In this document: positions 6,401-22,000 of the stretch, piece by piece | Layout: every line of letters starts with the position of its first letter | Position numbering within the stretch: the first letter of the stretch is position 1 | Source of the DNA: Caenorhabditis remanei | Lineage: Eukaryota > Nematoda > Chromadorea > Rhabditida > Rhabditidae | Length of the DNA: 64,000 nucleotides | Reading direction: 5' to 3' | Assembly: GCF_010183535.1 (NCBI RefSeq) | Contig: NC_071332.1 | Span: forward strand, 10,540,001 to 10,604,000 | The notes under the pieces: generated by a model | The model's input: only the letters and a program-made list of their open reading frames with translations | What the model was told of the DNA's origin: nothing | Databases searched by the model: none | Translations under genes and position numbers: made by a program

Positions 6401-8203
6401 AGATTTATTGGATTATGTCTAGACGGACCTCAGATGTTATCAGTATGGAGATTCTGTTCTAGAGGATCGATGGCTGATGTTATTCTGAAAGCTACCATTC
6501 AAATGGACAATTTCTTCATTTATTCTCTGATCAAAGACATTGTTCATGTTAGTTAATTCCCTCAAATAGTCAATAAATTGATATTTTTAGGGGCTAGTTT
6601 TTCTCCATTCTTCAGTGGTTGGTTGCCATGGAATGTTGACTTCGAAATGTTGTCTGATTGATGACAGATGGCAAGTGAAGATTTCAAATTATGGATTGAA
6701 AGATTTGAGATCTATTGAGATGTATGAAAAGAAAGGTTGCATTGTTTTGATTGAGATTAAAAAAATAAAATTCCCATTTTCAGATCTCCTCTGGAGTGCT
6801 CCAGAACTGCTACGAGCTGAAGATATCAAGGGAACAAAGGAAGGAGATGTTTATAGTTTAGGTATCATTTGTGCCGAACTTATTACTCGAAAAGGTGTGT
6901 TCAATATGGAGGATAGGAAGGAAGATCCTGAAGAAATAATTTATTTACTCAAGAAAGGAGGAATGAAATCACCAAGACCTGATTTAGATTATGATCATAC
7001 TATTGAAATTAATCCGGCATTGGTTGGTTTTTATCTTCGTTTAAATTGTGTATTTCTTTGATTTTTAGCTCCATCTTATCAGAGATTGTTACACGGAACG
7101 TCCATCTGAAAGGCCTTCAATTGAAACAGTGAGATCTCAATTGAGAGGAATGAATTCTAGTAGAAATGATAACTTGATGGATCACGTATTCAATATGCTG
7201 GAGTCCTATGCATCATCTTTAGAAGAAGAAGTTTCAGAAAGAACGAAAGAATTGGTTGAGGAGAAAAAGAAAAGTGATGTTTTGTTGTACAGAATGCTGC
7301 CAAAGTGAGCATACTTTCTTGTGGTGAAAACATAGAATCTTATTTCAGAACTGTGGCGGATAAACTAAAGCTCGGACAGACGGTAGAGCCGGAAACATTC
7401 GAACAAGTCACCATTTTCTTCTCCGATGTAGTTCAATTCACAACTCTTGCTAGCAAATGTACACCTCTACAAGTTGTTAATTTGCTGAATGATTTGTATA
7501 CTATTTTCGATGGAATTATTGAAAGACACGATGTTTATAAGGTGCTTTTTGTAGTGATTTTCCCGAGAAATTTTTAATTTTTCAGGTAGAAACCATTGGA
7601 GATGGATATCTCTGTGTATCTGGTCTTCCTCATAGAAACGGAAATGAGCACGTCCGACAGATTGCATTGATGTCTCTAGCGTTCTTGTCGAGTCTAGAAT
7701 TCTTCAGAGTCCCTCATCTGCCAAGTGAAAGGATCAATTTGAGAATTGGAATGAATTGTGGAAGTGTGGTTGCAGGAGTTGTTGGATTAACAATGCCACG
7801 TTTCTGTCTTTTTGGAGATGCAGTGAATACGGCTAGTCGGATGGAGAGCAATGGAAAACGTAGGGTTTCAATTAGAGTTTTTTACTTGAACCATGTGATT
7901 TCAGCTGGAAAAATTCATTTGTCTGCTGAAGCCAATCGTCTTCTAACTGAAACTGTTGGAGGCTTTGTAACAGAATCTAGAGGAGAAGTGATTATAAAAG
8001 GAAAAGGAGTCATGGAAACGTTTTGGCTTATTGGACCAAATTCTGGAATTCGTCCAACTTCTACAAAAAAGATTGTGAAACCTAAAAAGGTTTGTCAAAG
8101 AATTTAAATGAAAAGTATTCTGTTTAAGATGTATGAGGAGTTTCAGATGGAAGAACTTCATCGACAAGAGACACTGAAGTCAGATGATGTACTTAGTGAT
8201 TAG
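3448..8203 (+). CDS. gcy-7: Receptor-type guanylyl cyclase
   Basis: Single-pass chemosensory receptor making cGMP from GTP. Twenty exons join in frame to 1107 residues: 3448-3489, 3535-3722, 3796-3905, 3955-4202, 4366-4477, 4526-4651, 4699-4811, 4927-5046, 5416-5679, 5736-5837, 5885-6064, 6108-6320, 6371-6547, 6591-6735, 6784-7022, 7069-7304, 7349-7541, 7586-7859, 7905-8089, 8147-8203. In order: signal peptide ([11 protein letters not shown]), extracellular ligand-binding fold to about residue 475, one membrane helix ([19 protein letters not shown]), pseudokinase domain (NYG replaces DFG) and a coiled linker. The cyclase domain has both metal Asp residues (FSDVV, IFDGI), guanine-specifying VETIGDGY and [10 protein letters not shown], and Arg in NTASRMES, so it should be active. 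The exon 8/9 junction spans the longest intron and is the least certain. The symbol rests on synteny; other gcy paralogs are similar. Confidence 0.9.
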
Positions 8204-8318: not shown

Positions 8319-9663
8319 CTATTTTACCGAATATAAAGCATCCAAAGATTTCACTCGAACATGTTCTAATAATTCCAGAAATTGAGAATACGGACAGATT
8401 TGTAAGCATCCAGGAACGGTCATTGGGTACGCTGTATTGGTTGTATTCTTGTAGAACACCTGAACTGTATCGTCATCATATAACTCGAAGAGTACTGTAG
8501 CCGTATATGGAACCAGTTGATCATTGGAGACATTCAAAGCATAGAGAAGGGCGGAAAGTGTTCCGTCGTGCTGAAAATGTAAAGTCATGGAGTCTACTCA
8601 AATATTTTTGAAATTTTTGGAAAAACTCACCGAAGAATACATCAAAGCATTCTTTGTGGTTTTATTTGCCTTCAGATCTTCCATATTTTGCAAGAACTGA
8701 TTCACTAGCATTCCTCCTCTGAACTTCGCTTTTGTTGGTGAATTAAATTCTTGATTTCTCGTTATTCTCTTTAGTTCTCGAATGTGATCCATTATAGTTG
8801 TTCCATTGAATACTTGATTCAACCAACTCGGCTGGGGCATATTGTGATCTATCTGAAATTAAAAGTTGAGTGTCTCACTAATAATTGTTAAAGCAACCTC
8901 TCTCTGGATATCATATAAATCATTAATATTCCAAAAGTCGATAGATTCCATTCCAGTTGTGTTTTGCAACCATTTGAACATTTGACCATATTCACTATTC
9001 ACTTGAGCAGCAATCGGAGATTCCTCGTTTTCGTTGGCTAAATCATAATTTGGACATTTGACTTTTGTTGGACGGAGCAGCTGAAATCATGATGACTGTT
9101 GATTTGAATACCACTGCATCAATAGTTCCATAACTCACTGCATCAATAGTTCCATAAGCAGTCTGAATCGGTGTTGGCTGCCAGTACCGTAGATATGAAG
9201 ACTCCCAAACACGATCATCTGTTGGAGGGAAGAGACCAGCAGATACTCCTTGAGCCGTTTCAATCGCTCTTTCGGAATCAGAAGAGAGAATGAACACCTG
9301 AAAATTACAGAAATTGGACGGTTTCTATTAGAAATCTCACTTTATCCTTATTGAAAATTGGAAGCACTGTGCTTCCATACCGTTGTCTGAGCCAAATACC
9401 CAACTCCACAGACTGCCAGATTCCTTTCTGAAATCTAGTGGATCAATATGTTCTTCTTTTCGTTCAAAACAAGAAAAACTAACATTCGTCAATTGATCCC
9501 AACCACGTGGCCAATATGTCTCATTATACCTATCTTTTGGGTATGGTAAATCACCTGGAGCACGGTCTCCATGTCTCCAAATTGCTTGCATCATTATTAA
9601 ATTTGCACAGTATGTGGAAGAGAAAAGTGTCAGCAAAAAGCATAGCGAGAACATGTGACTCAT
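8319..9663 (-). CDS. pho-6: Secreted histidine acid phosphatase
   Basis: Branch-2 histidine phosphatase that hydrolyses phosphomonoesters at acid pH, probably in the gut lumen or lysosome. Six exons, minus strand: 9484-9663, 9341-9427, 9139-9297, 8898-9080, 8631-8852 and 8319-8570, giving 360 residues, the usual family length. A signal peptide (about residues 1-19, ending SSTYCA) precedes the catalytic RHGDRAP motif at residues 30-36. The C-terminal proton-donor His-Asp pair opens exon 6 (H278, D279). VFILSSDSERAIETAQ matches the family's substrate-side helix. Several N-x-T sites fit a secreted glycoprotein. The gene is convergent with the cyclase, with 115 bp between stop codons. The symbol follows synteny with C. 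elegans; other pho paralogs are possible. Confidence 0.9.
9112..9159. repeat. Tandem 24-bp duplication covering an exon end and its splice donor
   Basis: Two adjacent 24-bp units (9112-9135 and 9136-9159) share their first 22 bases. Read on the minus strand, each contains ATTGATGCA followed by a GT donor (GTGAGT in the first, GTGGTA in the second). They form the end of acid phosphatase exon 3, so the gene has two donor sites 24 nt apart in the same phase. Confidence 0.85.
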
Positions 9664-9950
9664 TGTATTGCACTGAAAAATCGAATTGGATTGAGAGGGA
9701 TTTGATTGAAACAGTATGAAAAGAGATTATAGATCGAAAAAGACAAAAACTACAGACACAGAGAGAATGAAAATTCAAAAAGTGGGCATAGCAAAAAAAA
9801 AGTTATTTTTGATCTATCTTACGATTAATTCGGGAAATTAGTCGATGAGTCAGACCCGCGAGAAATGAGATAGCAATAGTATGTTCTTCTGCGAGTAACC
9901 TCCTTTTCCGATTTTTTTCTGTTTCCGCTATTTTTCAAATTTTCAGCAAG

Positions 9951-11009
9951 ATGTCGGATCCTTCTGATAATCCAGAATCAAATCAGGAGAGGAACGGAGA
10001 AGAAGAAGAGAAAGAAGAGAAGAAAGAGCAAGTGGATGTTGAGAAAGTAGATGAGGAAGAAGAAGATGATGAGGCTAAAAGAGTTGAGAAACAGGAACAA
10101 CAAAGAATACAAGAAGAAAAGAATAAGAAAGAGAAAGAAGCGGCTAGAAGAAGAGCTGAGAACACCCCTATGGCCTTTCGGAAATTGAAAAAACCAGTGA
10201 TTTCGAAACCAGGAGGCTCTAAAACGAGTTATGAATCCTTTTCGCGGATGGGCCATTATCCCAAAGAAAGGGATCCAAATGAAGAAAGAGAAGAAGTGAG
10301 TTTATGAAAGTGGGCAAATCAAACAGAACATCTTCAGTTTTGATGAGATCGAGTTGAACCGCTTCATATCTACATATTTACGAGGAAAACGTTTTGATTT
10401 GCAGATTCCTCCAGTCCCAAAACCACCACCTACTGGAGACGAGCCCGGTACATCGGATCGATTTGTAAGAGAATTGTAAACAAGGATACAGTGATTAATA
10501 GACTGATTCTTCAGAAAGAAGCTGAATTTGATCCATTTGGACTCCCGCCTGTTATTGCTAAGGAAAAAGAGAAACAACGGATTGAAGAAATGATGCGAAA
10601 TCAGAAACAAATCGAGGAAGCGAGGGCACAAATTCTAAGCGAGAGGAACATACTGAAAAAGGGATTCGACTATGTATCTGATAAAATAGACAATATGGGA
10701 CCAAAGAAGAAAAAAACTCCAGAAGAAATGGATATAGGATCCACTTCTCATTCTGGAGAAACTTCTGTTATTACACTGTCACCCAGAAACGATGAACGAG
10801 TTGTAGAAGACGGGGGCTCAGGTACAGAAACTATTTCAAATCAAGATCGAAACGGAGCACGTCAAGAGGAGAACGTCGCCGATGCACCTCCTGAACCTGA
10901 AATTCAAAACGACAATACTCAAGTTGATCCTGTCGTGGAAAATCAAAGAGGTCAAGATGATCAAAATGCTGCAAACAACTCTTGTTTTGATAGTTGTGTT
11001 TTGTTATAA
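9951..11009 (+). CDS. Acidic low-complexity protein with C-terminal CaaX box (family member A)
   Basis: No family recognised. Three exons joined in phase 0: 9951-10295, 10405-10464 and 10515-11009, giving 299 residues. A splice-acceptor-like TTTTCAG lies just before the ATG, fitting trans-splicing. Residues 1-75 are almost all Glu, Lys, Asp, Gln and Arg (charged coil), followed by a basic stretch (FRKLKKPVISKP), a Pro-rich second exon (IPPVPKPPP) and a Gln/Asn/Glu-rich tail. It ends NNSCFDSCVLL: CVLL fits a CaaX box with terminal Leu, predicting geranylgeranylation and membrane attachment. No signal peptide or transmembrane segment. AATAAA at 11134-11139. First of five tandem genes with the same architecture. 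Confidence 0.75.
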
Positions 11010-11844
11010 AAACATTAATTGTGCATAATTGAGTTATTTTTTTATAATTTAATTATGACATTCCTAATATTTCCCTTATTTCTGTATCTATTCATAAGTA
11101 TTCTTTCCAAGTATTGTTGAATATTTTTTGAAAAATAAATGAAGAAACGGGAGTTTGTTTTGAAAGAAATTTTCGAGGCATTTTCTAAGTAATGACAGGT
11201 TGGGACGAAAGGAAAAAAGGAAAGCTGGTAATTATCAAAACGAAAAAGAAAGAAGAGCGAGTGAAAAATCGAAAAATGGAAAAAGGAATACCGATTCTTT
11301 CCGTCTGTTCTGTCGTATTATCAAGTTAGAAAGTGAGTTTTTTGTGAGTCATGAAGAATGAAAAACAACAGAAATATGGTATCACTTTCTCTAAATGTTC
11401 CCTTCGGGGTTTGACTGAGACATCCAAAATCTCATAGTCAGGTAAAATTCCTTACTTTCTCTTCTTGTATATATTGGCATTGATCGATAAGATGGTCACT
11501 TTTCGCATCATCTTTCAAGAGTTACACAAAAATAATAATAAAAGAAGTGAGAAAAACTCGCAAAATATCTGTCTAGGTTAGCTAGAGAAACTTGTTTACG
11601 ACCTACAACTATATCATTTAGAATAATGAGTGTTGGATGGGTTATGGATCGGAAAAATACACGAAGATAGAGTTATTCTCTTTCCACTACCCAACGTTTT
11701 TACAAGTCCTGACGGTTCTCCTTGAGTTTTTTAGTAATCTAATGTAATATTGCACTTATTGGTAGGCAATTGATCCACAGGAAACTTTTCTCTACTTTCT
11801 TCTAACTGGTTTGTTTATAAAATACTTTAATCCCGTTTTTCAGA
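11010..11844. other. Spacer between family members A and B
   Basis: Holds the 3' UTR and poly(A) signal of gene A and presumably the promoter of gene B. AT-rich; no gene or repeat recognised. Confidence 0.5.
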
Positions 11845-12911
11845 ATGTCATCGTCTACTTGTACCGGTCCGTTTTGTTCAATTAAAATGAAAGAAGATGA
11901 GAAAAAAAGAAAAGTTGAAGAAGAGCAGACTAAAAAAGAAGAAAAAAGCAAAGCTGACAATGAGCAATATTTGAAAGAAGCAGAAGAACGAAACAGAGAA
12001 AGAGAGAAACAAGATCGTCGGAAAGATGAACCTATTACTGGAGTTTCGAGTTCTGCATTCTCAGAAGTGTCAAATGAAGAAGTTATGGATTCAATCGCTG
12101 CATCAAATTATCAAGGGACTACCGATGAAGTTAAGGAGCAGTCAAATGAAGTGAGTTTAGAGAGACAACTCTTCTTGTTTTGGGTCAAGTCATTTTTGGT
12201 GTATTCCAGGTTCTATCTTGTTTCTTTTTATTACGTTTACTGGTATTTTTTCCGTTTCTTATCCAGTGCTCAAAAAGGGGATTAGCTTGATTAAACTTTC
12301 AGCAACTGAGAACAAGCGGCTCATCCCAATCCCAACGGAATCTACCATTTTCATCCAATCTACAGAACAAACAGTCAAATTCTTCAACTCCTTCGACTCC
12401 ACCCGTGATCGTACTAGGGCTCTCAACTCTTCCGGTACAGCCTTCATTACATTTCATGGTCGACATTTCCCGTTTGTTTCAGGAAGAACCTCCATTCAAT
12501 CTACCTCAACTCTCTGCTGCAAAAGCAGCAAAAATCGATGCGCTCAATCTGGCAGCGAAACGACAGGAAGCAGAGAATTCCAAAAGAGAAAGAAGCAGTG
12601 AATGGTCGACGGAACTTGGATCAGGACATTCTTCTGTTGATCTACAAGACCCAGAATCCAACAAAACAGATGAACAATCCATTATTTTTGTTCAGCCAAC
12701 AGCCCAGAGTACAGATGAAAATGAGGATGAAGAACAGCGTCAACAACCTGATCCGATTGACTTGAATGCAGCTCCTTTTGTTCCTCCAACACCTCCTCCA
12801 GCAGAATCTGCTCAACCGGGAGCTGAGCCTGTGACTGGACATGTGGTTCCTAGTCACTGGCTGATTTCAGTTTCACATGGAAAAAGGTGCTGCAGCTGCA
12901 CTATTTTGTAA
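11845..12911 (+). CDS. Acidic low-complexity protein with C-terminal CaaX box (family member B)
   Basis: No family recognised. Exons 11845-12150, 12303-12434 and 12483-12911 join in phase 0 to 288 residues. The start codon lies one base after TTTTTCAG, a likely trans-splice acceptor. The N-terminus has a small Cys-containing patch (STCTGPFCSIKMK), then a Glu/Lys-rich coil of about 60 residues, a Ser/Gln/Asn-rich exon 2 and a Pro-rich end (APFVPPTPPPAES). The C-terminus is GKRCCSCTIL: CTIL is a CaaX box with terminal Leu, and the two Cys just before it could be palmitoylated, as in Ras-like hypervariable tails. AATAAA at 12976-12981. Exon number, intron phase and tail match its neighbours. Confidence 0.75.
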
Positions 12912-13424
12912 AATAATGAAAACTGTCTTGTCCAGTATTAGTTGGTTTTTTTAAAAATGTTTTGTAATGATATACAATAAACCGTTTGTAGATTGATCAT
13001 GTTGCTATTTCATTCTCTGGGCGCCTTAATTTCAGTCTGTTATATCAACAAATAACTGATAGATGAAAGAAGAAACTTACTGGATTTTTACAGGAATTGA
13101 AGATGTGGAACAGAAGAAACAAAATAATAGAAACTACTTTTTTCTGTACGGAAGCATAACCAATAGTTTTCTGATTGTTTGAAAACATTTGATTCCGTTT
13201 CTCGTAAATAGAAATGTTCGTCCTCAACAATATCAAAATTTTAACTTGAGAAGAGAAAATCAGAAAGTTTTTGATCTATTGCATGATGTCAGATGACGCT
13301 GAGGAAATGCGGGAAAAAGGAGACATTCAAATAGAAATGTTTTGAGCCATTTTCATACAGTTATTTCCATTTTTTTATTTTATTCTCTCTGAATTCTCTA
13401 AATATCTATTTCCAGAACGTCAGG
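12912..13424. other. Spacer between family members B and C
   Basis: 3' UTR of gene B and upstream region of gene C, with a TATTTCCAG acceptor about 9 bases before the gene C start. Nothing else seen. Confidence 0.5.
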
Positions 13425-14448
13425 ATGTCGGCGCCCAGTGATGAAATAACAAAGAAACCGTTTAAAACTACAAAAGTATTATCCCCAAGGGCTCAAAGAA
13501 TAAGAGCAGAAACACTAGCGAGAGCAAACCAAGAGAATTCAAGTTTCAGTTTACCCGGAACATCGTTTAATATCCGTAAAAAACCTCAACCAGAAGTTGA
13601 ATCACTAACCCCACCGCCCGCTACAAGACGTTTTTCGAATCAGATAAATGAGGTTAGTTGGAAGAGAAAGAATAGTTTGAGATGAAAGGTTCAAGGGTCT
13701 TATCGTGTTCCGTCACATCGATTTCACTTCAAGATAATTTTCAGTTATCACATCTGAGAGGACCACCACTACAAACATTCGGTGATCAACCTGAATCCTC
13801 GACCCTGCCAATTGACCTTAGAAAGTCCAGTGGAAACGATAAATTAGGATCCTCGAATGAAATGAAAGCACCTATTCCAAGGGAAACAACACCACCAACT
13901 CCGCCAACGACAAGAGAACAAACTAAACCGTTGGGTGAATCATCTTCATCAAATCAACCGGGATCATCGAAGAATCAGTCAGAATCTTCTAGTCAATCGG
14001 CTTCTCAGGCAGAATCAAAAAATCAATCGGTAGGAAATCTTCGGACTCGTACTTATTTCAACATTTTCTTTTTCAGAAGCCGAAACGTATCGAGCCCAAA
14101 ATCATTGAAGTGAAGCCATACGAACGTAGGAAGCCTCGGGTTGTTCAACCAATTATTCTGCCTGAAACTCGTCCAGTTGATCCTGTTGAACCAGAGAATA
14201 CGATTCCGGCTGAAACAGAGAATCCGATCAATGATCAACGTGAGAATCCTGTTGAGGCTCTGCCAGAAAACCCTCAAAATGAAAACAATGGAGTAAACTA
14301 TGTTCACGAGGAAATTAATGGTCGAGCTAGGAATGCAACTCCAAATACTGTAGGAACTCCAGCATCTAACGACATTTCTGAAACAGAACATTCAAGATCA
14401 TATTGTGATCCGAGAGGATTACAGTGCAGCAAGTGCTCGATTCAGTGA
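13425..14448 (+). CDS. Low-complexity Pro/Ser/Glu-rich protein with C-terminal CaaX box (family member C)
   Basis: No family recognised. Exons 13425-13652, 13745-14029 and 14077-14448 join in phase 0 to 294 residues. The N-terminal 76 residues are basic and Ser/Pro-rich (KVLSPRAQRIRAETLARA). Exon 2 is Ser/Gln/Pro-rich. Exon 3 contains degenerate repeats of the kind VEPENTIPAETENPI. The C-terminus is GLQCSKCSIQ: CSIQ is a CaaX box with terminal Gln, which would favour farnesylation, with one further Cys three residues upstream. AATAAA at 14588-14593. Same layout as A and B but with less of the Glu/Lys coil. Confidence 0.75.
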
Positions 14449-15132
14449 ATAGTGATAACATTGATAATAATATAATTGATAATACATATGTACTAATTTC
14501 ATCGGTAACACGTATATCATTAATCTTGTTTATTCATTCATTATCTGGTCTTGATTATATATTATTCTTATTTCTTTTCTATTTTTGAATAAATAATAAT
14601 CACGATTGTAATTCAGAAACAGTTGGCCTAATCTTTAAAACATATTAATCAGAGAGACAGATCGAAGTAAGAAACAAAAGCCGAAAGTCTATCGATCAAA
14701 ACTGAAACAGCCCGAATCGACCCGAAATTTTTGAATTCAAATCGACAAGATAATTCTCGTTTCTAGGCACTCAATTCCTAAATTTGACTGTTATTTCAAA
14801 TGTGACCTGATCTGATTTTTAGCCGCGCTATCTTGAATTGGTTCGAAACAATTTTCACCAAAAATCGTAATTGTCCATTGATTCGAAAAATTTAAAAATT
14901 AGATAAGAAACTTTCTGATCTCGTTCAACAAAAACTAAATATACTTTATGATCTACCATTGTTCAGAAGAAATGTGTTTTTGATTTCGGCGGCGGGAACT
15001 GTATGTAAAGAAAACAACACTTGGTTTCTTCTCATTTCATCTCATTTTTCTTCTTTTTCAATTTTCTCTGAATTTTCTCTTTATTCTTAACTTCAGTCAT
15101 TCTTAATCTTATCACATTTTCAGCTCTCCAAA
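14449..15132. other. Spacer between family members C and D
   Basis: 3' UTR of gene C, then AT-rich sequence leading to a pyrimidine tract and TTTTCAG acceptor (about 15116-15122) just before gene D. Nothing else recognised. Confidence 0.5.
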
Positions 15133-16281
15133 ATGGCAGACTCTAATAAGAAGAATACAGAAGGAGGAGAAAAAGGAAAGAGAGCGAATGAAGCAATGAA
15201 GAAGACTTCTCAAGGAGAAGATCTTGAAATGGATTCGTTGGAAGCTGGAAGTGCTGGAACCTCTTCAAATGAGCAGTCTACCAGAACAGTGCCAATAGAT
15301 ACACCAAGACCAGAAAGCACATCAGATCAACCTCACGAATATGAGGCGTCGGATACAGCTGTGAGTTCAAAATTGAAGTGGGTCAAGACTTCTTGTTTGA
15401 ATTATTTAATACAAAAACTGAAAATTAAAACACAAAATGCCTTAGACGAATAAATCAAAAATCACATTTTCAGTCTTCATCGAGCCACATTCAACGAACT
15501 TCCACAAGAAAATCAAGTGATCGGAGAGGAGAACGCGCAAGGACTAAATCGGTTCCATCGATGATGTATCCCTCGTCATCATCATCAAGTTCAGAACCGT
15601 CAACGCCGCAGACGGTTCGAGAACGACCATCATCAGAGAGCTTGCCGATGCAATCAAACTTGAGTCGTAGTCAACCAATCAATCCAAAAGGATCATCAGA
15701 ACAAACGGTATAAGAAGTCGATTTTGTATATTAAAACTAAGAAGTTCTTTCAGAAGGCATCTTCATCTGGATCATTCAAAAACCTTATCATGGTTAAGCC
15801 AAAAGCTGAAAAAGGACAAACTGGAACCGATGAAGGGGAATCAGGTCTCGTAGAAGATGGAGCAGAGTCTTCTGCACCAGCCACTGATCCTGCACCAGTC
15901 GTGGAACCTGAACTAGTCGCTGATCCTGCACCAGTCACTGATCCTGCACCAGTCGTGGAACCTGCACCAGTCACTGATCATGAACCAGTCGCTGATCCTG
16001 CACAAGTCGCTCCCCCAGCCGAAATGATTCTCGCTCCTGACCCAATCGATGTTCCCGCTCCAGATCCAGCTGTTGCTTTGCCTCCTGTTCAAAACGATGT
16101 TCCGGATAACGCTCAAAACGATCAAAATCATGTTGTAGACGGACAAGAACTATTGGATGGCATTGTTTTAAGATTTCCTGATCCGGACCCGGAAGTTCAG
16201 GTCGCTCAACAAAACAACGCCTTTTCCATACTAGGTTGCATTCGAGACGCATTCAGCAAATTAAGTAAAATTTGTAACTGA
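15133..16281 (+). CDS. Low-complexity repeat protein related to the CaaX family but without an intact CaaX box (member D)
   Basis: No family recognised. Exons 15133-15360, 15474-15707 and 15754-16281 join in phase 0 to 329 residues. Exon 1 is exactly as long as exon 1 of gene C (228 nt). Exon 2 is Ser-rich (PSSSSSSSEPSTPQT). Exon 3 holds tandem repeats of Asp/Glu-Pro-Ala-Pro-Val type. Unlike its neighbours it ends SKLSKICN: a Cys two residues from the stop, so no canonical CaaX. The last 20 residues (from LGCIRDAF) look amphipathic and could still touch membranes. AATAAA at 16457-16462. Position, exon layout and composition make it a family member that lost or changed its anchor. Confidence 0.7.
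15881..16010 (+). repeat. In-frame tandem repeat coding (V/E/T)(D/E)PAPV
   Basis: Degenerate 15-18 bp units of the type CTGATCCTGCACCAGTC repeat about seven times inside exon 3 of gene D, encoding Asp-Pro-Ala-Pro-Val modules. Confidence 0.8.
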
Positions 16282-17013
16282 AGTTCTATGTCAGCTCGAT
16301 AATAATTAAGCATCTATCTTGAAGCTTTTTCAGTTATCTATTTATTTGTGTTTCTTGAATTTGATTAATCAATTAAATCACAAAATATTAAGACTAAAAC
16401 TCGATTATCTTGTACCGCCTATTCTGTATTTCCCGTTTATTTCATTGCTATTATTGAATAAATAATTTTGGATTGAAATATTTTCTAGAAACAGATCAAT
16501 TAAATGTAATGTATTGTCCAAAATGTGGGAAATAGACTTACATTTTCCCTCATCAAAGTAATAACAGCATCCTACCTTTGATGTGAAAGAGGGGATTCCA
16601 CATCACTCCAATTCTATTCTCCAGTACAAAATGATTGGGAACATCTTGAAACAAAACATTCAAACATAAATTTATAACGAAATCGTCAAAATCATGACCC
16701 AACAATGTAGACTTGAAACTCTATTTTTGCATGTTCTTACTGGCTCAGTAAATAAATTTCACTAGGAGTTCTAATAAGAGTATCAGAAGAACAATTTGTT
16801 TCTAGACATGTAGAATTTGTTTTTGATCTACCAGATCATCGGCGCTCAAAAATCAAATCGAAAAGCGACTCTCGTTCGATTGTCATTCAGTTCAAATCAG
16901 TTTTCACATTCCATTTTCTATAATTTTCTAATTCAAAACAAACGTTCAACTTTCATAAATTTTTTTCCAGTACGCCATCCCTTCTGTTTCTAATATTCCA
17001 ACAAGCCAAAGCG
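16282..17013. other. Spacer between family members D and E
   Basis: 3' UTR of gene D and upstream region of gene E. A TTTTTTTCCAG acceptor lies about 43 bases before the gene E start. No other feature seen. Confidence 0.5.
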
Positions 17014-17783
17014 ATGTCTGACAGAGAAGAGAGTGAGGAACTGGAAGAGGCTCGGAAACGGAAGGATGATGCAGAGTTACGAGATGAAGAACTGGCTAAT
17101 GTAAGTGAAGAAAATTATGATAGGATACCTTATTTGTATGATTTTTTTTATCATAGTGAAAACTGAAGTATGTAATTTTTTTAAAATTCTAAACTTTAGA
17201 TGAATCAACCGTCGGATAGTCAATCACAGGCATCGGATCAGTTAGGACCATCATCCGATCGTCGACCAGGACCATCTACACAACCGGTTCCACCAAATCG
17301 ACCAGCACCATCTAGACAATCGGTTAAATCGATTCGGTCAGGGCCAACAACTGTCCCTGTGAGATATAGCTCATATCCCTCTACGAAATTGAAAAAAACA
17401 ATTTCGTAGATTTCTTCCTGAGTTCGTCAATCAATTCTACTTTTCAGGTATTAGGAGAATTCAAAGAACCAGCGCCTCAGGAGCCAATCTTCACAAAAGT
17501 ACCACTACGACTTCCTGGGCGGCCCGCGACGCCTATACAAGAAATGCCAATTGAGGGAATTGAATTCAACCAAGAACCAGAACAAGCTGAGCAAGATCCA
17601 GCCGACCCGATGGCTCATGCGGATCCAGCTGATCCAGAGCCACCAGCTGATCCAGAGGCCCCAGCTGATCCAGAGGCCCCAGCTGATCCAGAGGCCCCAG
17701 CTGATCCAGGGGCCCCAGCTGATCCAGTGGGTCAAGGGGACCCAGCGGTTCCTGACGAGTCAAGATGTTGTTCAACTATGTGA
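17014..17783 (+). CDS. Low-complexity repeat protein with C-terminal CaaX box (family member E)
   Basis: No family recognised. Exons 17014-17100, 17200-17358 and 17448-17783 join in phase 0 to 193 residues, the smallest of the five. Exon 1 is a short Glu/Arg/Asp coil beginning MSDREESEELEE, similar in composition to gene A. Exon 2 is Ser/Pro/Gln-rich. Exon 3 carries six-residue repeats (ADPEAP). The C-terminus is DESRCCSTM: CSTM is a CaaX box with terminal Met, predicting farnesylation, with a Cys immediately upstream that could be palmitoylated. AATAAA at 17921-17926. It closes the tandem array. Confidence 0.75.
17621..17730 (+). repeat. In-frame 18-bp tandem repeat coding ADPEAP
   Basis: About six copies of an 18-bp unit (GATCCAGAGGCCCCAGCT), three of them nearly identical, in exon 3 of gene E. 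The near-identity suggests recent slippage or unequal exchange. Confidence 0.85.
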
Positions 17784-19074: not shown

Positions 19075-22000
19075 TTAGACATCCATATCTTCAATCAGAA
19101 TCTTTGCCTCTTCATAACTATCTTTTGACTGCAACGCCTTTGTGAAGAAGATGATGGCTCCGAAGAACAACATTATTGCTGAAACTTCATACTTGAGAAT
19201 TTGAAATATCGAGAATGGAATACTCACCTGGAATTGAAAGATACACTTGATCCTTTGCAATTGTGAATACTAGCACTGTCATTACCATTGAAATTATGAG
19301 AACAATAGTGCCAACCACAAAGTTAAGATACATCTGTTTCCGATTCTGAATGTTCAGAAAGTATAATTTGAGAAAGAAGTCTCTCAGAATCTTACATAGG
19401 TCCCAATTGCGATGGAAGTGTAGCAAAATGGACAAGTGAGGAGTCCGTTGGTTGAATGAAACAGAAATTGTTCGTCACAGTGGGGACAAACGTAACGGGG
19501 ACAAGTCACTTCACGGGGGTAACGGATTTTTGAGAGATTTGGGCCTGAAACAAATGTATTCAGAATAAATACTTTAAAGGGTAGATTATAACCTGCTGGA
19601 TACGGTGGTAATGGTTCAAAGGGAAATGCTTGACCTGGAGGCCACGAGAAGTTCGAAGTGGGTTTCTCATCGAATTCTTCATGAATAATCGTTGACGAGC
19701 CACTTGAGGTAGTGCTTGCGCTACTGCTCATCTCGCGTATTTCTGCAAAAGATTGATATGAGAGCAGTTTTTGGAAACGAGTCGTCGTGAGTCGCAAAAC
19801 ACTGAAAAGCTAAAGGAAAGTGTCCCAAGAGAATAACAGAACGCCTTTGAAACAAATATACCAAAAAAGTGTGGTTGGTTGGTTTGAAAAGGAAGATAAC
19901 AAAGGACTTGTTTTGTTTTAAGACTGGAATCACAAGGTGTCCAAGACAACTACAAAACTCTTCCTCTACCGAAGAGAGCAAAAGAAATGAAGTGTGTTCT
20001 GACTAATGGAAAGAGAAAAGAATCAGAAAGAGTTTAGATGAAGTAAATGAAAATGACGAAGATTGTTTTCTAAATGGTTTTTTTTCTTGTACTTCCGGTG
20101 GAAATAAGCAAAGAAAAAAATAGAAATCGGTCTCGGTAAGAAGATTACGAGTTGAGTTACATGTACAGATGTTGGGCAGTTGATAAATAAACTGAATTGA
20201 AACAGTTGTCGTTTTCTGGGTACCAAAAGATACTGGGGCCAAAGATACGAAAACAGAAGGTTCACTAATTTTGGTCAATATTTTTATAGAATGCTGGAAC
20301 ATTATGGAACTGATCAGGCAAAATATACAATTATAGGGAAGAACTTGGGGGGATATGTTTGAAAATTACTGAAATGATATTGTGATTGACTCATTTATTT
20401 GAAGCTGCTCAATCTCAGAAAAACTCATCATTTTCACTATTGTAAGAGTAAAAAGCTCTAGAAGTAGAAAACAAATCTCTCTAATTTTTGTTTTACCAAC
20501 ACTCATAACCTTTACTCCTCATTCGAAATTTCAGGTTATTTTTAACTAAATCCGATAGATACATTTCGTTGTGTGCCAAAAGAGCACCTCGCCAAAAAAA
20601 AGAAAACAAGAATCTTTTTGTTATTTTTCTCCCTCGATTGGCTCCGCGGAGAGCGTTAAAATCGGGCGGTCAGACTGTAGAGTAATCGGCTTAAAAGCAA
20701 AGAGAAATTGGAAAACGAAAGGCAAAACCGACTCGGTTTCATTTAATTTCTGTTGATGTTTATGAAGAATGAGTTGGCAAGACAAATTTCAAAAAAGTAG
20801 AGAAAATTCGAAAAAAAAATCATCAGTGATTGTAGCCAACGTGTCGAAGATAGCATTGAATTTGAAGAGACGGAGGACGGAATAGGTCAAACAAAATCTC
20901 TTTGAAGTTTGTGGAACGGATAATAAGCACACAGACGCGCGTGCGGGGCACGGAAGAATGGTCATTAATGATTTCAATCAGCTGGAGGAGTTTTCAGTGC
21001 CAAGACTCTGCCCAACACTTTACAAAATTAAGGTAATAAACGTCTTCTCGGAGGAAAAGAATGTAGAAAAAACAGGGAGAAGGCTAATCTCACTAAAAGG
21101 TTTGGTACGTTTTACAAATGCTAAAAAAGGAGATTAAAGAGGTTGAAGATGAGTTAGAGAGGAATAGAAAAGTGTAATGCCAATAAAGAAATAAAAGGAG
21201 AAATGATGGAGGATTACGGTAGCTCTGGAGAAGAGCACGTGCTGGGAGAAGAGTTCGGAGCAAGGGGTTTAGGGGTTGATAAAACAATTTTATAACTAGA
21301 ACTGTGAAAAGAACATGACGGTGGTAAACTTAAAATACTCAATCTTAGAAAGACATAACATTGAAACTTGCTCCTCAACATCCGCTTTGTTGAGCCCCAT
21401 AAACTGCATTTCCGAAAGCTCTAAAAATCCCATAAAGTGGCCTTGTGACGTGGAAAAAACGTTAGAAAACCAAATGCCAGAATCTCATGCCATTCGTTGA
21501 TGAATCAGGATACGAAAATTTAGATGAAGACGGAGTAGAAAAAGAAGAGCAAGGAGCTCAGGGAAGGGTGCACAAGCTGGGATTCATCAAAAGCGCAATC
21601 AAAATATATTGTTTGTTTATCTTTTTTGGATTCCATTCTATTCTAGTTAGAAGAAAAGTTTGAAAAGAAATAAGAAGAAGAAGAAGAAGAAGAATCAGGA
21701 ATAAATGAAACTTGTTGGTTTTCATCGTTTTTCAATGAGGAAAAAGATATAAATGGAGATGGAAAAAGAAGGAAACGGTTTGAATGCAGAAAGGTCTTCT
21801 TCTGTTTTCCGTGATAAGATCGATAAGCTGTGTTGTTTCTGTTTGTAGGGAAGGGATACGAAGAGAGATCACTTCGAAAAACCGGTAGACGAAGAAGAAG
21901 AAAAAGGAAAACGATTATAGAAGAAGAAAAAGACATTGAAGGAATTTCGGAATTTGAAAAGATATGGAAGAAACTGCATTCCAACCATAAGCTCCTCCCA

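Follow-up and report, generated by a model that had tools for sequence, protein, structure and literature searches.

A 64-kb stretch of contig C5 of the Caenorhabditis remanei genome (hereafter the window, meaning the whole of the DNA that was analysed) holds five neighbouring plus-strand genes, g1 to g5, between window positions 9951 and 17783. We rebuilt the gene models from splice sites and found that each gene encodes a protein with a low-complexity body, and that in four of the five this body is followed by a C-terminal CaaX box. The rebuilt models agree with a preliminary description of the same DNA, which had proposed five adjacent plus-strand genes with three exons and phase-0 introns: there are three exons in 5/5 genes, and 10/10 introns are GT-AG and phase 0. 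The genes are as follows.

9951..11009, plus strand: g1, exons 9951-10295, 10405-10464 and 10515-11009; 299 amino acids (aa), ending SCFDSCVLL; the public model CRE_05523 bar one residue
11845..12911, plus strand: g2, exons 11845-12150, 12303-12434 and 12483-12911; 288 aa, ending GKRCCSCTIL; relatives in C. nigoni and C. briggsae
13425..14448, plus strand: g3, exons 13425-13652, 13745-14029 and 14077-14448; 294 aa, ending LQCSKCSIQ
15133..16281, plus strand: g4, exons 15133-15360, 15474-15707 and 15754-16281; 329 aa, ending AFSILGCIRDAFSKLSKICN, without a CaaX box; the public model GCK72_018836
17014..17783, plus strand: g5, exons 17014-17100, 17200-17358 and 17448-17783; 193 aa, ending SRCCSTM; ADPEAP-type repeats

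All five reading frames are intact in the present assembly. The second intron is 46-50 bases long in four of the genes and 89 bases in g5, exon 1 measures 228 bases in both g3 and g4, and an AATAAA begins 65-176 bases past every stop codon (5/5). A plausible AG acceptor ends 4, 1, 9, 9 and 43 bases 5' of the ATGs of g1, g2, g3, g4 and g5, respectively. The acceptor "just before the start codon" of the preliminary description therefore holds for g1 to g4, and g5 is an exception because its acceptor is 43 bases away; these positions suit trans-splicing without proving it. When we compared our models with public C. remanei models, we found one difference over 299 residues between g1 and CRE_05523 and letter-for-letter identity between g4 and GCK72_018836, and both public models concur with the rebuilt ones through the final residue.

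C-terminal tails

The endings CVLL, CTIL, CSIQ and CSTM, read earlier from the letters, are present in the rebuilt models of g1, g2, g3 and g5, and g4 ends ICN, without a CaaX box. The tail features lie at the following positions.

10995..11006, plus strand: CaaX codons of g1, CVLL; X is Leu, predicted geranylgeranyl; further Cys at -8
12897..12908, plus strand: CaaX codons of g2, CTIL; predicted geranylgeranyl; Lys-Arg followed by Cys at -7 and -6
14434..14445, plus strand: CaaX codons of g3, CSIQ; predicted farnesyl; Cys at -7 and -14
16198..16275, plus strand: predicted C-terminal helix of g4, residues 303-328; contains the only two Cys of g4 (-14 and -2)
17769..17780, plus strand: CaaX codons of g5, CSTM; predicted farnesyl; Cys at -5

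Across the five proteins, 12 of 14 Cys lie within the last 14 residues, and the remaining two sit close to the N-terminus of g2. Each CaaX protein has one or two Cys in addition to the CaaX Cys, no more than 14 residues from its end, which raises to four the three proteins that had been credited with an extra Cys. A Cys at -4, a permissive a2 residue and a residue X accepted by farnesyltransferase (FTase) or geranylgeranyltransferase I (GGTase-I) were found together in g1, g2, g3 and g5 and in the CCII ending of a C. nigoni relative of g2 (see below); g4 lacks this combination. Which of the two enzymes acts depends on residue X, and the farnesyl/geranylgeranyl switch among the array proteins is predicted from the last residue alone.

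To put these endings in context, we calculated that ~0.27% of proteins of the pooled composition should have a Cys at -4 together with a permissive a2, and that at least four out of five would occur by chance at ~3e-10. A loose CaaX-like scan of frames of at least 40 codons in the window returned 12 endings. Four are the array ends, in frames of 133-202 codons; of the remaining eight, seven are in frames of 43-62 codons and one is in a frame of 106 codons antisense to g1. Among 36 stop-ended frames of at least 120 codons, six have a Cys at -4. Four of these are the array ends; the other two are CVFL at 7061, which is an open-frame end and only putatively a protein end, and CQRI at 8107, which is not a CaaX. 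The prenyltransferase family was found in the C. remanei genome (130.5 Mb), individual enzymes not being distinguished. For scale, a PRENbase query reported in the consulted part of PMC3274489 gave 49 prenylated C. elegans proteins.

In g4, AlphaFold2 run on the single sequence places a helix at residues 303-328, with block means of 55 (301-310) and 79 (311-329) as compared to 40-62 elsewhere. The tail is amphipathic; when its last 22 residues are shuffled, 0.19% of the shuffles attain its hydrophobic moment of 0.65. Our reading of this modelled helix is that g4 may have swapped one membrane anchor for another.

Composition and alignability of the bodies

The bodies had been described as disordered and acidic. 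Low complexity holds for all five, and g1, g2, g4 and g5 are acidic, with net charges between -16 and -24; g3 departs from this with a net charge of +2. The further claim that the bodies are alike in composition but hardly alignable is borne out by exon-wise shuffles. Run with neither filter nor composition correction, BLASTP produced numerous local matches, involving all array pairs (the best being g4-g5, E 4e-8 in the five-protein set). In contrast, when exon-wise local alignments were compared to 500 shuffles, 2/30 exon pairs had P <0.05 (g1-g3 and g3-g4, exon 3). Because these comparisons are mostly non-significant, we read the BLASTP matches as shared composition, and body homology among g1 to g5 was rejected, with 28/30 exon pairs at P >=0.05. 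End segments gave P <0.05 in 3/30 pairs: the last 30 residues of g2-g5 (P 0.006, reflecting a common CC tail), the exon 3 start of g1-g2 (0.022) and the exon 1 start of g1-g3 (0.024). At the DNA level, overlapping flanks aside, array genes match one another over 51 bases between g1 and g2 (74.5%) and over 30 bases near the polyadenylation signals, which we take as probable low complexity.

No Pfam domain scored above the cut-off in g1 to g5 (scan at E<=1) or in proteins P0001-P0005 (scan at E<=10). When we looked for paralogues elsewhere in the C. remanei genome, g1 and g3 yielded no match at E<=0.001; matches outside the array numbered one for g2, one for g4 and seven for g5, all weak (E 0.017-0.9). 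The family thus appears to have no clear paralogue elsewhere in this genome.

Relatives in other Caenorhabditis species

With residues 135-288 of g2 as query, we found three proteins: CRE_05524 of C. remanei (P0002), P0003 of C. nigoni and P0004 of C. briggsae. The proteins g2, P0003 and P0004 have conserved blocks in common at 43-47% overall identity (~44% for g2 against each of the other two), and because these blocks persist across species, the bodies of the g2 group are under some constraint. In the reverse direction, P0003 matched g2 alone in the C. remanei genome (130 Mb, E<=1). P0003 ends KSKCCCII, a CaaX box (CCII) with a Cys on either side of the CaaX Cys, and these are its only three Cys. 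P0003 and CRE_05523 thus confirm the tail beyond this genome, for g2 in one other species and for g1 in another set of C. remanei models. The preliminary description had held that sister-species orthologs without a C-terminal CaaX would tell against it; on this point the evidence is divided, since the C. nigoni relative has the CaaX and the C. briggsae model does not.

We also modelled P0003 with AlphaFold2 (together with two relatives). The model has a helix at residues 10-59 (block means 84-98 for residues 11-60) and a second long helix at 151-169; much of the rest, tail included, is of low confidence. The mean predicted local distance difference test (pLDDT) score is 56.8, and 140 of 262 residues score below 50. 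No C. elegans protein was returned for g1, g2 or a joined query of g5, g3 and g4 segments, by a method that detects only relatives with shared exact 5-residue words.

Upstream sequences and neighbouring genes

Comparison of the upstream regions revealed an element, TTTWTGATCTAY, before g1, g3, g4 and g5, with its GATCTA core 140-189 bases 5' of the ATG.

9806..9817, plus strand: TTTWTGATCTAY before g1
13268..13279, plus strand: TTTWTGATCTAY before g3
14945..14956, plus strand: TTTWTGATCTAY before g4
16820..16831, plus strand: TTTWTGATCTAY before g5
9858..9865, minus strand: E2F-like TTTCNCGC upstream of g1, a lead only
13309..13316, minus strand: E2F-like TTTCNCGC upstream of g3, a lead only

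These are the only four TTTWTGATCTAY sites in the window (4/4 on the plus strand upstream of array genes), and shuffles have a mean of 0.10. This shuffle figure is not a clean P value because the pattern was picked after inspection. A blind count of words common to all five upstream regions was not above shuffles, and 9-mers (one mismatch) common to four of the five numbered 230 as compared to a shuffle mean of 136 and a largest value of 191. Since the element was found by inspection and five-way words are no commoner than in shuffles, the figures overstate its significance. Even so, its concordant position and strand in 4/5 genes suggest that the array is probably co-regulated.

Genome-wide, TTTWTGATCTAY has 1735 sites as compared to 206 for a reversed control (~0.85 per 64 kb), and some of these sites seem to belong to repeats. 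Several arm copies have a longer common context, such as CCAGAAAAATA after the core, as in repeats. On contig C1, TTTTTGATCTACC forms inverted pairs ~698 bases apart at several places (e.g. 1457270/1457968 and 7509830/7510528), as if marking the ends of a dispersed repeat. At 40 loci, taken from 40 of the 501 genome sites of a 13-base form and all on C1, there was no CaaX family downstream; CaaX-like frames of at least 50 codons occurred at two of the 40. A literature search for the TTTWTGATCTAY motif yielded no paper. The element was found within 500 bases upstream of an MSP-domain match at 0/30 loci (of 101 matches), with distance counted from the match and not from the ATG. A sperm regulon, as read from MSP genes, gains no support from these 30 loci. 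AGATCT lies 112-129 bases upstream of the MSP-domain match in 7/30 loci (L020, L021, L022, L026, L028, L030 and L034) and is a possible sperm promoter element.

E2F-like sites occur 41-52 bases downstream of the TTTWTGATCTAY start in g1, g3 and g4 (window positions 9858, 13309 and 14992). The array-upstream share of such sites in the window is 2/3 for TTTCNCGC, 2/5 for GCGGGAA and 0/5 for TTYSGCGC, and they are a weak pointer to possible expression in germline or proliferating cells.

Pfam matches on single exons identify HSP20, guanylate cyclase, V-ATPase H subunit, CCCH zinc finger and LysM genes as neighbours in the window. The flanking genes at 9337-9663 (minus strand, left of the array) and 19384-19797 (right) had no Pfam match as single exons. 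The left-hand gene contains RHGDR, which we take to be the acid phosphatase motif, and the order of neighbours around the array is presumably that of the C. elegans F52E1 region. According to the consulted part of PMC10151413, F52E1.9 is bus-6, a phosphatidylinositol phosphate (PIP) phosphatase; this identity fits the TMEM55-like label of the right-hand gene, a candidate assignment.

Interpretation and alternatives

Four CaaX tails and a predicted membrane-binding helix end unrelated-looking bodies, which suggests that membrane position was kept while the rest changed. We consider it probable that the array arose by tandem duplication and represents a rapidly diverging Caenorhabditis family of membrane-tethered, mostly disordered adaptor or brush proteins. 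The preliminary description had proposed a rapidly diverging family selected for membrane tethering; the tandem family, the kept tail and the diverged bodies stand, but the conserved blocks of the g2 group mean that the bodies are partly constrained.

Several observations weigh against this interpretation. In C. briggsae P0004, the KSKCCC cluster is followed by 155 residues (261-415) rich in HPDPG repeats and there is no CaaX box; this extension may reflect either an incorrect model or a genuine loss. Compared with window positions 11845-14029, CRE_05524 runs g2 and g3 together, lacks the g2 tail and diverges from g3 from about residue 144 (within exon 2) in the manner of a frame shift; the g3 tail may therefore not be intact in that strain. 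Residues 66-299 of g1 found no relative from another species at E<=0.001, nor, at E<=10, did the query that joined segments of g5 (48 residues), g3 (219) and g4 (68). Confidence in the g4 helix is moderate, with pLDDT >=90 at no residue, and the region upstream of g2 is without TTTWTGATCTAY. The paralogy of g1 to g5 is argued from position, gene structure, tail and promoter, not from body alignment, and the lipidation, expression and location of the proteins are predictions.

If the array is such a family, its proteins would be synthesised in the cytosol and their CaaX Cys modified, with geranylgeranyl on g1 and g2 (X = Leu) and farnesyl on g3 and g5 (Gln and Met). The last three residues would then be cleaved off and the nearby Cys palmitoylated, and g4 would bind the membrane by means of its C-terminal helix, which is amphipathic and possibly palmitoylated. 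The disordered body would project from a membrane's inner face, and the ~50-residue helix predicted at the N-terminus of the g2 group might engage a partner. Selection would retain the anchor and some short blocks per gene, the remaining sequence would drift or be driven apart, and the type of anchor would be exchangeable between family members. A more specific proposal, which we offer tentatively and would not yet back, is that in this Caenorhabditis-restricted family mainly the C-terminal anchor is under long-term selection, that anchor chemistry (geranylgeranyl, farnesyl or amphipathic Cys helix) is interchangeable between neighbouring paralogues, and that the disordered body works largely via charge, length and stand-off, not sequence.

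Diverged bodies could also be the product of conflict (sexual, or with parasites or selfish elements), in which tethered disordered bodies act as arms-race decoys or effectors and change in the body is adaptive. The scarcely alignable bodies of these tandem paralogues agree with this, and between the two C. remanei models of g2 (window and CRE_05524) 8/44 residues differ in exon 2 as compared to 3/222 elsewhere (266 compared; Fisher P 3.5e-5). However, five of the eight exon 2 differences fall inside one six-residue block and may be a single event, g1 differs at only 1/299 residues between models, and the g2 blocks are kept between species; we regard conflict as unlikely, if worth keeping in mind. 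Relaxed constraint would make the array a decaying duplicated family, in which tails persist through youth, with early losses represented by g4 and by the frame-shifted g3 segment of CRE_05524. The missing CaaX of g4 and the out-of-frame g3 part are what such decay could leave behind, but all five frames are intact in this assembly, the C. nigoni relative of g2 retains its CaaX tail at 44% identity, and g4 has an amphipathic Cys helix in place of the CaaX, which together make decay improbable.

It is very improbable that the CaaX ends are gene-model artefacts, whether from wrong last exons or by chance. CRE_05524, the public model spanning g2 and g3, does differ from ours; the public g1 and g4 models, however, match to the last residue, P0003 has a CaaX end, every stop is followed by an AATAAA, and composition makes chance a poor explanation (~3e-10). 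We find it scarcely credible that the array is a cluster of paralemmin orthologues. The layout of the g2 group is alike: an N-terminal helix (in the C. nigoni relative) precedes a disordered body, and the Cys clustered at the CaaX are accompanied by basic residues. Against this, the survey in the consulted part of PMC3405040 found no paralemmin in C. elegans and gives paralemmin genes six to eight small exons with a single large exon at the 3' end, whereas the array genes have three exons in 5/5, and the Pfam scans contained no paralemmin match.

Should the array be a family of tethered disordered proteins, as we favour, it would provide a natural protein series that keeps membrane tethering apart from sequence, and a tractable worm genus could be used to test what share of disordered-protein function resides in the anchor and bulk properties. 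Orphan low-complexity nematode genes can be grouped by tail, promoter and gene structure where body homology fails, and automatic annotation can lose a tail, as in CRE_05524.

Comparison with known systems

Open-access full text contained no paper linking C. remanei with CAAX, none naming these genes and none joining CaaX to a rapidly evolving, intrinsically disordered Caenorhabditis gene family. Among the titles and abstract starts listed by looser open-access searches, none describes a family like this array. The hypervariable tails of Ras, Rho and Rab proteins have a CaaX box with upstream Cys and basic residues, and the array tails too have a CaaX with upstream Cys. In contrast to these proteins, the array has no G domain, and none of the 122 Ras-family matches listed in the genome falls there. 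In G protein-coupled receptor kinases (GRKs), the anchor varies within the family between farnesyl, geranylgeranyl, palmitate and an amphipathic helix (PMC3307776, consulted in part). C-terminal anchors appear to be swapped among the array members as among GRKs; however, GRKs contain a kinase domain together with an RH domain, and no Pfam domain was found in the array proteins. Nematode-specific peptide family D (NSPD) is, like the array, a disordered, low-complexity Caenorhabditis family, but its paralogues are 81-95% identical and do not form one cluster (PMC6081950, consulted in part), whereas array paralogues are barely alignable beyond composition. We rejected the possibility that the array encodes NSPD sperm peptides, as the array paralogues lack this high similarity.

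Paralemmins (PALM1-3 and palmdelphin) have acidic, disordered bodies. In the consulted part of PMC3405040, they are described as keeping the CaaX with low conservation outside short motifs, among them an 11-residue paralemmin motif, and as undergoing prenylation and di-palmitoylation of a C-terminal Cys cluster; the survey there found them in vertebrates, with only a lancelet hit besides. At the level of sequence, 4/5 array proteins and C. nigoni P0003 likewise have a C-terminal CaaX with adjacent Cys, and g4 and the C. briggsae model do not. The absence of a CaaX in g4 parallels palmdelphin, whose main form is also without one (PMC3405040, same part). Because the family profile and the gene structure fail, we do not file the array as paralemmin; the best reading by analogy is that it may function like paralemmins without being one. 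Taken together, these comparisons lead us to conclude that the array is a new family of a recognisable kind, whose interest lies in a kept but exchangeable anchor.

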